Assembly (NCBI GenBank): GCA_947478845.1
Contig: CANJXC010000008.1
Coordinates: 1-64,000 of the forward strand
Direction of reading: 5' to 3'
DNA length: 64,000 bases
Origin: Spirochaetales bacterium
GTDB taxonomy: Bacteria > Spirochaetota > Spirochaetia > JABEVK01
Each line of letters opens with the position of its first letter. The stretch's first letter is position 1. The position numbers were made by a program, and so were the translations under genes. Under the pieces are notes generated by a model. The model had not been told where the DNA came from and searched no databases. It saw only the letters and a list, made by a program, of their open reading frames with translations. This document shows positions 27,171-50,132 of this stretch, piece by piece.

Positions 27171-27628
27171 TGCGATCTCCTGACGGCGATCCCACCGTAT
27201 TCATCAACAGCATCATCGGTGAGAACTCCACGTTCAAAGGTGAGATGTCGGTAACCGGATTTTTTCGGATCGACGGCGATTTTCAGGGCTCTGCTCATAC
27301 TGAGGGACGAATCATGATTGGGCGCCATGGCCGCGTAAAAGGGCACCTCACGGCTCGCGACATTGTGGTGGGTGGCATCATCAAGGGCAACCTTTCCGCT
27401 ACCGAGAAAATTACTTTGCTTTCCACTGCGCTAGTGATCGGCAACGTCTATGCTCCGCGCATCGCTATGGAGGCGGGCGTTTTGCTCGATGGTTCGTGTT
27501 GTGCCACACCCCGCATCCGCGAAACCGGTGAGCATCCGCTGCTGGCGGAAAAGGCTTACACCCTAAAAATCGACACCGCAGCCCGCGTCCATACTCCTAC
27601 CGATCTGGTGGGCTCCAGCCGTGGATAG
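27170..27628 (+). CDS. bactofilin
   Basis: A 152-aa bactofilin, a polymer-forming beta-helical cytoskeletal protein. The core has the regular six-residue repeats: GEMSVTGFFRIDGDFQG, HTEGRIMIGRHGRVKGHL, DIVVGGIIKGNL, then ERIT-like KITLLSTALVIGNV. The start ATG shares a TGATG with the stop of the M23 gene. A C-terminal tail of ~40 residues (with Cys-Cys) lies outside the core. It probably scaffolds the M23 hydrolase at the membrane. Confidence 0.93.
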   Translation: MRSPDGDPTVFINSIIGENSTFKGEMSVTGFFRIDGDFQGSAHTEGRIMIGRHGRVKGHLTARDIVVGGIIKGNLSATEKITLLSTALVIGNVYAPRIAMEAGVLLDGSCCATPRIRETGEHPLLAEKAYTLKIDTAARVHTPTDLVGSSRG

Positions 27629-28121
27629 AGTAGGGGCACCGTTTCCCGGCGGCCCCCCCCTTCCTTCCCGAGACGAAGCCCGCAAGCCCAGAAAAGCCGA
27701 ATCCAAGCCCAACACAGGGTTTCTGGGTCTGCTGAGGAATCGTGACGAATCGGCCCCTTCGATCGGCACTGCTGGTGCCGGTGGCGTCGCTCCCAGTGAG
27801 GCCGAGCTGGAAACCCTTCTCGACAGCGTCCACCTCGCCGGGCAGGAGCTAGCGCGCTATCCGAGCCCGGAGAACGTCCTTGCCTACAAGAAGTCGGTAG
27901 GGCGCTTCATTCAGCTCATCGTGGCGAGTTCGTTGGAGTTGACCGAAGTGGAAGGCCGTATGCGAAAGGACATGAAGAAGCCTAAATACGCCCTGCTACA
28001 AGTCATCAACGATAAACTCGACAAGCTTGGAGCCTACGTTCTTTCCAACCAGAAAGACCACTTGGAAATTCTGAGTAAGGTGGATGAGCTTAACGGCCTT
28101 CTCGTCGACCTCCGCCACTAA
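27621..28121 (+). CDS. YaaR-like protein (DUF327)
   Basis: A 166-aa cytoplasmic protein. A disordered Pro/Arg-rich N terminus of ~55 residues is followed by a helical DUF327-like domain: YKKSVGRFIQLIVASSLEL, a linker, LLQVINDKLDKLGAYVL and HLEILSKVDELNGLLVDL. GTG 27621 overlaps the bactofilin stop by 8 bp. The family function is unknown; the position suggests a role in the same envelope module. Confidence 0.75.
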   Translation: MDRVGAPFPGGPPLPSRDEARKPRKAESKPNTGFLGLLRNRDESAPSIGTAGAGGVAPSEAELETLLDSVHLAGQELARYPSPENVLAYKKSVGRFIQLIVASSLELTEVEGRMRKDMKKPKYALLQVINDKLDKLGAYVLSNQKDHLEILSKVDELNGLLVDLRH

Positions 28122-28124
28122 GCA

Positions 28125-28373
28125 CCCCTTGATCTCGCGGTTTTGGCGTCGCCTCCGCCTTGCTTCCGTACTCGCGTACATAGAGTACGCTCCGTGCGTC
28201 GCATCGTTGTCGGCTTAGCCAAAACCGCGATATCAAGGGGCGGGCTGATGGGCCTCGGTGGGGTTGCGTCGCCTCCGCCTTGCTTCCGTACTCGCGTACA
28301 TAGAGTACGCTCCGTGCGTCGCATCGTTGTCGGCTTAGCCAAAACCGCGATATCAAGGGGCGGGCTGATGGGC
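28125..28373. repeat. 120-bp tandem duplication of a palindromic intergenic element
   Basis: Bases 28146-28253 recur exactly at 28266-28373 (108 identical bases, period 120). Arm A (28125-28147, starts CCCCTTGATC) is an inverted copy of arm B (28218-28240), 22 of 23 positions, and of arm C (28338-28360). Each unit also holds a small hairpin, CGTACTC/GAGTACG (28167-28173 with 28183-28189 in unit 1). The element fills the gap between the convergent yaaR and ABC exporter genes. There is no U-tract, so it is not a simple terminator. Confidence 0.95.
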
Positions 28374-28375
28374 TT

Positions 28376-30142
28376 TTAGTCGCTGGAGGACTCAAACTGC
28401 AACTTATACACGTCTGCGTAGAGCCCGCCTTGAGCTAGCAGTTCTTCGTGGGTACCCGACTGGGCTATGATTCCCCGGTCGAGGACAAGGATGCGGTCGG
28501 CTTTGCGTATCGTCGACAAACGGTGCGCAATCACAAGGCTGGTTCTGTCCTTGAGAAGCACCTGGAGAGCCTGCTGTATCATCCCCTCGGTTTCAGTGTC
28601 GATGTTGGCGGTAGCTTCGTCGAGGATGAGCACCTTCGGGTCTTGGGCCAACACGCGTGCGAACGAAACCAATTGCCGCTGGCCAGAGGATAAGTTGGTG
28701 GCCCCCTCGTTCAGCAAGGTGTCGTAGCCGAGGGGAAGAGCCTGTATGAATCCGTGGGCCTGCACCTGGCGGCACACTTCCTCGATACGACCTCTCGGTA
28801 GACCACGACCTAGATCAATGTTGTCGAACACTGTTCCAGAAAACAGGAACACATCCTGCAGCACACTTTGAATCCCGCCCCGGAGCGAGGACAGCTGGTA
28901 ATCCCGCAAATCATTACCGCCAAAAAGAATGGCGCCGGAATCGATATCCCACAGGCGGGTTAGGAGGCTGGTGATGGTGGTTTTTCCGGCACCAGTGGTA
29001 CCCACGAGGGCCACTGTTTGCCCTTCGAGAACTTTGAAGGTGAGTCCCTGGAGAACCGGCTCTTCCGGAAGGTAACGGAACCTGACCTCGCGAAACTCGA
29101 TGTTGGCATGGGGAGCCTCGCCGAGGGCCAAATGCCCGCGATCGGGAACCATGACTTCGGTCTCAAGAAAGTGAAACACCCGCTCCGCTCCTGCCATTGC
29201 CGACTGCAGGGCCGTGAAGTTTTCAGCAAGGCTGGCGACCGGGTTGTAGAACCGGCTTACCAGCGTGATGAAGGCAATCAGGACACCCACTGTGAGGGTC
29301 CCCGATGAATCAGGATGCAGGAACAACTGGGTGCCAAACCAAACCAGAAAGCCCAGTGACACCGCCCATAGGACGTCGATCAGTGGCCTGAATACGGCGT
29401 TGATGGTCCTTTCGGCCAGGTTGGCCGCCAAAAGTTCAGTATTCTCTTGCGAAAAGGTGGCGCGGGCCGCCTTTTGCCGCCCAAACAGCTGAACCACTCC
29501 AATTCCCTGAAGGTGCTCAGACAGAAAGGCATTGACCCGGCTCACTTGCGCCCGAACCCTCCGGTTGGCTTTGCGGTTCCAACTTCCAAACAGCAACACC
29601 AGCACGAACACCGGCGGGAGAGTCACCACAGTCCAAAAGGCCAGCAGTGGATGGAGGACAAACAAAGCCACGACAACGCCGCCCATCATCACAAAGTCCT
29701 TGAGCAGCGAGGTGAACAGCGTGTTGAAGAACTCGCTGAGAGTTGAGACATCGCTCGTGACCGCCGAAACCAGCCTGCCCTGCGGGTGAGACAACAGCCA
29801 AGCCGAACTCTGGCGCTGAAAACGGGCCATGAGGCTGGTGCGGAGGTCGAGCATCACGCTCTGGGAAATTTTGGAAAGCATATAGACTTGGTAAAATGAC
29901 GTCATCATGGTGACCACGATGCTGGCCAGAATGCCGGCACTGACAAGCGTCAGGTGCGCTAAATCGTGCGCCAGCAGACCTTTGTCGATACCGTTCTGCA
30001 ACAGCAACGGTACGGCCAACTCCGAGAGGGCACCCATCCCCAGAGCGACTACAGATGTGACGACCTGCCATCGGTAGGGTTTGAGGGTCCCCATCAATCT
30101 CGAGAGAATCTTGAGGTCGAGCCCGCGGATTTCTTCGCTCAT
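28376..30142 (-). CDS. ABC exporter half-transporter, canonical ATP-site subunit
   Basis: A 588-aa half-transporter with six membrane helices and a C-terminal ATPase. Walker A is GTTGAGKTT, the signature is LSSGQRQL and Walker B is VLILDEATANID with the catalytic Glu. The signature deviates from LSGGQ. It pairs with the upstream partner, whose Walker B has Asp instead of Glu, giving one canonical and one degenerate site as in TM287/288-type heterodimers. It overlaps the partner by 4 bp (ATGA). Likely an exporter of lipids or drugs (MdlB/YheH-like). Confidence 0.93.
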   Translation of the reverse strand: MSEEIRGLDLKILSRLMGTLKPYRWQVVTSVVALGMGALSELAVPLLLQNGIDKGLLAHDLAHLTLVSAGILASIVVTMMTSFYQVYMLSKISQSVMLDLRTSLMARFQRQSSAWLLSHPQGRLVSAVTSDVSTLSEFFNTLFTSLLKDFVMMGGVVVALFVLHPLLAFWTVVTLPPVFVLVLLFGSWNRKANRRVRAQVSRVNAFLSEHLQGIGVVQLFGRQKAARATFSQENTELLAANLAERTINAVFRPLIDVLWAVSLGFLVWFGTQLFLHPDSSGTLTVGVLIAFITLVSRFYNPVASLAENFTALQSAMAGAERVFHFLETEVMVPDRGHLALGEAPHANIEFREVRFRYLPEEPVLQGLTFKVLEGQTVALVGTTGAGKTTITSLLTRLWDIDSGAILFGGNDLRDYQLSSLRGGIQSVLQDVFLFSGTVFDNIDLGRGLPRGRIEEVCRQVQAHGFIQALPLGYDTLLNEGATNLSSGQRQLVSFARVLAQDPKVLILDEATANIDTETEGMIQQALQVLLKDRTSLVIAHRLSTIRKADRILVLDRGIIAQSGTHEELLAQGGLYADVYKLQFESSSD

Positions 30143-49934: not shown

Positions 49935-50131
49935 GACACGAACGAGGACAGGACGCAGTCGGGTCACGCCGCAACAGGCGCGCTATCGTTGAGCCCGGCC
50001 CGCCGTAGCGAGGACGTGAGACGGCAAGAGCTGCCCGGAAGTGAGTACCGGAGCGTGGCCGTAGCCACGTGAGGACACGAACGAGGACAGGGCGCAGCCG
50101 GGTCACGCCGCAACAGGCGCGCCGGGCTCAA
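49933..50131. repeat. paired 51-bp direct repeat with inverted outer arms
   Basis: AGGACACGAACGAGGACAGG begins two copies, 49933-49983 and 50072-50122, 49 of 51 bases identical (period 139). TTGAGCCCGGC (49989-49999) is inverted at 50121-50131. The element fills the gap between convergent aat and motB. It may fold into a large hairpin in either transcript. Confidence 0.9.
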
Positions 50132-50132
50132 C

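Follow-up and report, generated by a model that had tools for sequence, protein, structure and literature searches.

A structure-conserved palindromic DNA element and its tandem copy between two convergent genes of a Spirochaetales bacterium

The palindrome and its tandem copy

We analysed a window of 64,000 nucleotides from a Spirochaetales bacterium (positions 1 to 64,000, forward strand, of contig CANJXC010000008.1, assembly GCA_947478845.1). Within this window, a DUF327 protein gene and an ABC transporter gene converge on an imperfect palindrome and a tandem copy of it, which together occupy nearly the entire gap between the two genes. The features discussed here are the following.

27621..28121, plus strand: DUF327 protein gene, flanking; its stop ends 3 nt ahead of the element
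28125..28240, plus strand: full-length element (copy 1), 116-nt imperfect palindrome
28125..28147, plus strand: left arm, 23 nt, single occurrence
28146..28253, plus strand: direct repeat unit 1, 108 nt
28168..28194, plus strand: apical core, a GTAC stem flanked by the loop sides CTCG and CTCCG
28218..28240, plus strand: right arm of copy 1, pairing with the left arm 28125..28147 at 22/23 positions
28254..28265, plus strand: linker between the repeat units, 12 nt
28266..28373, plus strand: direct repeat unit 2 (copy 2), the identical 108 nt without a left arm
28338..28360, plus strand: right arm of copy 2, which pairs equally (22/23) with the left arm 28125..28147
28376..30142, minus strand: ABC transporter gene, flanking; its stop begins 2 nt past the repeat
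49988..50132, minus strand: second member of the same family of elements in the window

The two repeat units are 100% identical at a spacing of 120 nt, and each consists of the last 95 nt of the palindrome and 13 nt of its right flank. An exact 108-bp repeat with a 12-bp linker between convergent genes had already been described in the initial annotation, and we confirm it. The annotation had further assigned to each unit a 23-nt arm able to pair with the left edge; the right arm of each unit indeed pairs with the left arm at 22/23 positions, but the locus holds one complete palindrome and one copy without its left arm rather than two equal armed units. Tandem Repeats Finder gives this repeat a score of 456, as compared with 53 for the sole other array in the window.

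Folded as single-stranded DNA, the palindrome reaches −34.1 kcal/mol versus −16.6 kcal/mol for shuffled sequences (z −6.8, with 0 of 200 shuffles as stable). The opposite strand gives a z of −7.5, and an RNA fold of the palindrome with a few flanking bases a z of −6.9. Copy 2, which has no left arm, folds no better than its shuffles (z +1.3).

A family recognised by its structure

Is the palindrome confined to this site? A DNA similarity search of the same genome, the BLASTN-type check that had been proposed for it, returned just two weak relatives besides the window copies. On its face this suggested a private duplication, a reading that was overturned by the family recovered with a structure model; the check was useful in that it supplied the two relatives, and came close to dismissing the family wrongly. 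The stems of the two relatives differ from those of the window copies yet stay paired, and short loop sequences are common to all of them. Sequence search nearly misses the family because what it conserves is the pairing and the loops, not the letters of the stems.

We aligned nine copies (alignment A2), four from the genome itself, one from the congener G001 and four from the congener G002. Their consensus structure contains 30 pairs, 18 of which show changes on both sides. The covariance model R1 was built from this alignment, and matches were counted at E ≤ 1 with up to 150 candidates scored per genome. R1 found 21 matches in the own genome, 17 of them absent from the training set, 13 in G001, 90 in G002, 25 in a genome of a sister genus (G006) and 2 in another genus of the taxonomic family (G005); two other members of that family, G003 and G004, gave 0 matches each at E ≤ 1. 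The 90 matches of G002 include many weak ones and some that represent a strong copy read in reverse, and 19 reach E ≤ 1e-6 among the matches listed. In the window, copy 1, itself a training sequence of R1, scores 79.9 bits, and copy 2 scores 61.7 bits.

The 21 matches of the own genome lie at up to 13 loci, four of them near contig ends; C12 and C14, both at contig ends and carrying a near-same copy, may be one locus. One further locus falls within the window at 49988–50132 (52.8 bits with R1, a non-training sequence), flanked by genes for a leucyl/phenylalanyl-tRNA protein transferase and a MotB-like protein that converge on it. In this copy the apical GTAC stem is swapped for a compensated GTGGC/GCCAC stem.

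With a second model, R2, built from 44 copies, we scanned 296 genomes of the phylum, scoring up to 12 candidates per genome under strict filters. Three genomes matched at E ≤ 1e-5, namely the own genome, G006 and the distant G073, the last with one copy. The exact core pattern was present in the own genome alone among these 296, and it is therefore not the signature of the family.

The initial annotation had noted that the repeat unit reads partly open in both directions. This carries no weight, as the 31 open frames counted in 13 copies compare with an average of 32 in shuffled sequences. Two open frames of the element have no Pfam match, for three the best NCBIfam value is no better than E 0.82, and ten open frames overlapping copies of the own genome have no Pfam match above the cut-off. 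A coding palindrome was discarded as a candidate on these two grounds, open frames as in shuffles and overlapping frames without Pfam support.

The pairing of the stems is maintained throughout the family. In the 21 copies of the own genome, 87.2% of the cells are paired, changes on both sides occur in 27 of the 30 pairs, and the covariation score is 0.545 versus 0.166 for shuffles and at most 0.123 for slid controls; 29 matches from relatives are 91.2% paired with a covariation of 0.681 versus 0.190, all read with the proviso that fitting to the model biases alignments A3–A6 in favour of its structure. Further pair types showed no excess in the alignment of the 29 relatives, where 53 of 500 shuffles reach the observed value. 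By eye, the conserved letters are found in the internal loops. The loop at the tip has CTCA or CTCG on one side and CTCCG on the other, the lower loop has a CTTCGCC-like side opposite a CTTGCC-like side, and the outer loop is of one of two types, either CTACTGCGG / CCTCGCTACG or GATCTCG / CGATCT. The window copy has at its tip the loop side CTCG, which is CTCA in most other copies, and its outer loop is closer, by eye, to the GATCTCG / CGATCT type.

Paired changes of this kind could be produced by quasi-palindrome correction, a process in which one arm templates the other during replication, and the element would then be an unselected, passive relic. Such correction would account for paired changes with few wobble intermediates as well as for outer arms that are unrelated yet complementary. 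It should, however, erase the internal loops, and loop sequences are common to the copies and to distant genomes. As an explanation in its own right we consider it possible but rather unlikely, and it may act together with the mobile hairpin that we propose below.

Is the folded form DNA or RNA? The distinction rests on 25 well-paired positions, which were chosen for at least 75% Watson-Crick pairing. Of their 1068 cells, 15 are G-T and 32 are A-C; when all 30 pairs are counted, 55 of 1279 cells are G-T, 32 of these at one outer pair. In 38 tRNAs of the studied loci, as drawn by ARAGORN, G-T occupies 70 of 825 cells, and of these figures the G-T share alone is comparable, as ARAGORN draws no other mismatches in tRNAs. 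G-T, a wobble that RNA tolerates, is thus rare in the elements. This rarity favours folded DNA as the constrained form, by itself or combined with arm-to-arm correction in replication. A-C exceeds G-T in the chosen set, and therefore the signal may instead be that of an RNA read from the other strand.

A structured RNA, that is, a transcribed palindrome serving as an mRNA 3' stabiliser or a small RNA whose selection keeps the stems paired, would fit the strong covariation, the conserved internal loops, the very stable RNA fold and the position of the own copies at gene 3' ends. We nevertheless hold it to be improbable, given that G-T at the well-paired positions falls below its share in tRNAs, that presence is patchy and that near-identical copies occur in bursts. 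Moreover, Rfam had no match at the window elements or at 13 other loci, its hits elsewhere being only tRNAs and one ar9 sRNA.

Insertion, mobility and tandem duplication

The same DUF327–ABC transporter gene pair stands tail to tail in both congeners and in G005, with homologues that are 62–70% (ABC transporter) and 52–62% (DUF327) identical. There, the spacer between the aligned gene ends measures 0–23 nt. With a near-empty orthologous site in three relatives, the palindrome is most simply an addition in the lineage of the window.

The position between gene ends also raises the question of whether the element is a bidirectional transcription terminator for the convergent pair. Nine loci of the own genome have readable, Pfam-matched genes on both sides, and six of these are convergent and none divergent, in line with such a role; each own copy with both flanks readable has the 3' end of one or two genes beside it. 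The remaining three loci, however, are codirectional, no terminator-like site (stem followed by a T tract) is present at 27900–28600, and the relatives manage with almost no spacer and without such a hairpin at the site. The convergent bias also fits insertions that are tolerated solely where no promoter is hit, and a terminator appears to us quite improbable.

Evidence on how the element may move comes from the sister genus. G006 carries a burst of near-identical copies with units of 140–142 nt, whose two ends, GAGCCTNTTTCAAAA (or a slight variant of it) and the complement, form 15-bp inverted repeats. Identical 4-bp flanks border 11 of 19 copies, with three of the four bases agreeing in four further copies, two in two and none in two. 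This count covers 19 of 23 rows; left out were a chance pair in L150, a second pairing of the left end of L152, the 117-nt L184, and L189, which has no upstream flank. As a control, the flanks of different G006 copies agree over 4 bp in 1 of 342 pairings. Such flank duplications are the mark of a transposase making a staggered cut. With their inverted ends and 4-bp duplications, and with no Y1 gene found in that genome, the G006 copies are, as read from their sequence, products of MITE-like transposition.

In the own genus and G005, 16 of 39 copies have clear palindrome ends (the rest lie in arrays, are cut by contig ends or are poorly bounded), and a 4-bp duplication was seen at none of the 16. 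These copies would then be older, or moved by other means, and the mechanism of transposition is thus borrowed from the sister genus. The outer arms of the own genus differ between copies, an unexpected trait in ends bound by a transposase and one that speaks against the explanation that we prefer. In G001, the copies L106 and L118 combine an identical 14-nt upstream flank with unrelated outer arms, perhaps through arm replacement or a common target. A parent insertion sequence with matching ends was not found when the ends were searched in six genomes. Ten places inspected in G006, an assembly of about 530 contigs in which a parent element could escape notice, showed no matching-end pair around a transposase, and none of ten open frames scanned there is a transposase.

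A REP- or MITE-like element had been suggested at the outset. The MITE half of this suggestion is supported by a dispersed intergenic family, near-empty sites, and inverted ends and 4-bp duplications in G006. The REP half finds no support; the elements measure about 110–148 nt as against 20–40 nt. The proposal to look for a REP-associated transposase likewise led away from such an enzyme. Genes for Y1 (RAYT-type) transposases do occur in element-bearing genomes, two in the own genome, one in G001 and two in G002, as a REP/REPIN family moved by RAYT would have it. However, none was found in G006 with its 25 matches, in G005 with 2 (an assembly 76% complete) or in G073 with 1, and no family member lies near the two own Y1 genes (L011 and L012, IS200-like), whose surroundings showed no such hairpin in a fold scan. 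Fixed 4-bp target duplications are unsuited to Y1 enzymes, and it is such duplications that G006 displays. Together with the wrong element size, this makes mobilisation by RAYT very improbable.

The initial annotation had also read the exact identity of the two units as a recent duplication or active gene conversion. A recent duplication is plausible; tandem copies turn out to be a habit of the family rather than a peculiarity of this site. Arrays occur at 6 of the 13 own loci, the window's included, and the window duplication is therefore typical of the family. In five arrays, again including that of the window, neighbours are 94–100% alike over 72–246 nt, and in one array 71% over 77 nt. One own array comprises four model matches in steps of 123 nt; in it, as in the window, the later copies lack the outer part of the left arm (by eye). 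A PD-(D/E)XK (Rpn-type) transposase-like gene, L139:2072-3070, directly adjoins this four-copy array. Tandem arrays are found in G002 as well. That the tandem copy is an assembly artefact, as its exact identity over 108 nt and the four own loci near contig ends might suggest, is highly improbable, since G002 and five further own loci also have arrays, whose neighbours are imperfectly identical, and since the 12-nt linker differs from the left arm.

We have thus observed a family with covarying stems, conserved loops, a near-empty site, a tandem habit and, in the sister genus, inverted ends and 4-bp duplications. It is likely, in our judgement, that the feature is a non-autonomous, MITE-like mobile hairpin of a structure-defined family, which was inserted and then tandemly duplicated. 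One copy would have inserted between the DUF327 and ABC transporter genes after the species split from its congeners. The tandem duplication would have followed, probably when the hairpin caused slippage or template switching, with loss of the left arm from the new copy, and the other arrays may have arisen by slippage too. The element forms a ladder of short stems with conserved asymmetric internal loops between them. Since the stems drift and yet stay paired, it would act as folded single-stranded or cruciform DNA, read via its loops and probably recognised or maintained in this form. Cutting and joining of its ends would be carried out in trans by a host-cell transposase, whose staggered cut would leave the 4-bp duplications in the sister genus.

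Possible distant relatives and known palindromic repeats

With a degenerate core pattern, 34 stretches were retrieved from GTDB genomes, chiefly those of Agrobacterium vitis, Mesorhizobium and Rickettsia endosymbionts, and also from metagenome-assembled genomes (MAGs) of Nitrospirales, Clostridiales, Bacillota and others. Most of them, though not all, sit in the middle of a long palindrome. R2, whose training contains none of these distant genomes, matched at E ≤ 0.001 in 12 of 12 such genomes (Rhizobiales, Rickettsia, Nitrospirales and Clostridiales), with 3 to 88 matches per genome, a rate that is biased because the genomes were chosen by the core. Five Rhizobiales genomes gave 8–33 matches each, and two Rickettsia endosymbiont genomes 88 and 37. 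Alignment A6 comprises 36 matches; one is from G073, a member of the own phylum, and a part of them come from places fetched by the core pattern. Its stem covariation across phyla is 0.595 versus 0.134, and the exact TCRCGTAC core is missing from 6 of its matches, including that of G073. Outer loops distant from the core are shared as well, GGCGTYG / CCTAGCC being present both in the own genome (L003) and in a Bacillota MAG obtained from sheep rectum. A copy of Agrobacterium vitis (L241:1643-1790) carries a second hairpin in its apical loop, a nested insertion. Eleven IMG/VR contigs (L084–L094) carry Rhizobiales-like copies, and phage-like DNA may be a vehicle.

Several Rickettsia copies lie within genes. 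In one genome, read-through open frames span 6 of 15 readable copies (5 of the 20 stretches had no readable core and were left unscored), and two of the six (L269 and L276) lie in frame in the glyS gene of the endosymbiont, each at its own position. With the RPE1 model (TIGR01045, cut-off 30), Rickettsia copies score 21.4, 19.6 and 16.0 bits, all below the cut-off, and five other Rickettsia translations have no match to it. The copies ending in GACCTCTTGCATAAC or a close variant (L261–L265, L276–L278) have TA at both ends. By eye, this holds for 8 of the 9 copies that belong to one Rickettsia kind, whereas G006 has 4-bp duplications. Because TA is its own complement, it is perhaps part of the ends rather than a target duplication.

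Whether the Rickettsia RPEs, the Rhizobiales palindromes and the repeats of Nitrospirales, Clostridiales and the present lineage make up one trans-phylum superfamily of folded DNA is, to us, evenly balanced. Such a superfamily would be defined by the conserved ladder of asymmetric loops, with stems kept paired as DNA and with ends exchanged in such a way that different host transposases move them. We are equally divided on whether the ends would come in types according to host, with 4-bp duplications in one and TA-flanked ends in another (the TA possibly belonging to the end itself). Core sequence words retrieved no paper in full-text literature, and searches on RPE, RIME, stem-loop families and cross-phylum palindromes, mostly at the level of titles and beginnings of abstracts, turned up none that joins these elements. 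A BLAST-style search is nearly blind to the family, and a structure model joins elements of distant bacteria. The Rickettsia palindromes thereby gain likely relatives outside Rickettsia, and the spread of a non-coding hairpin between phyla, the reader of its loops and the question of whether DNA is the folded form that counts become testable.

How does the element compare with known systems? RPEs are given as 105–146 bp in length, with long stem-loops, in one paper (PMC2229807), and two describe them as known for in-frame presence inside genes (PMC10969869, PMC2229807). The 116-nt window palindrome, dispersed with 21 matches in its genome, resembles them; it differs in that the own loci show no in-frame gene insertion, with ten overlapping frames free of Pfam matches above the cut-off, and in that the window translations have no RPE1 (TIGR01045) match. 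The Rickettsia palindromes are described as Rickettsia-specific in PMC2229807, and the references of the same paper name such repeats in Wolbachia.

The Rhizobiales palindromic repeats have the same core and apical loops as the family and differ in their outer arms and loops, many copies there having CTGC / TCG(C). They would correspond to the elements named RIME.

Like MITEs, the family is short and non-coding and has inverted ends (22/23 between the window arms, 15 bp in G006). The 4-bp duplications, in which G006 resembles MITEs, are seen in 11 of 19 copies there and in 0 of 16 of the own genus and G005. In contrast to MITEs, its whole body is palindromic with conserved loops, its ends vary in the own genus, and it has no parent insertion sequence that we could find.

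With REPs and REPINs it has in common that they are intergenic palindromes, but it is several times longer than their 20–40 bp, and Y1 genes do not track the elements. GTAG and CGTC repeats are counted with the REPs (PMC3733652). The letters CGTC do occur inside the window element, but not as the tag of a 20–40-bp hairpin.

A further parallel, by analogy only, is offered by the attC sites of integrons. These are folded DNA whose structure is conserved and whose sequence is variable, as the present family would be.
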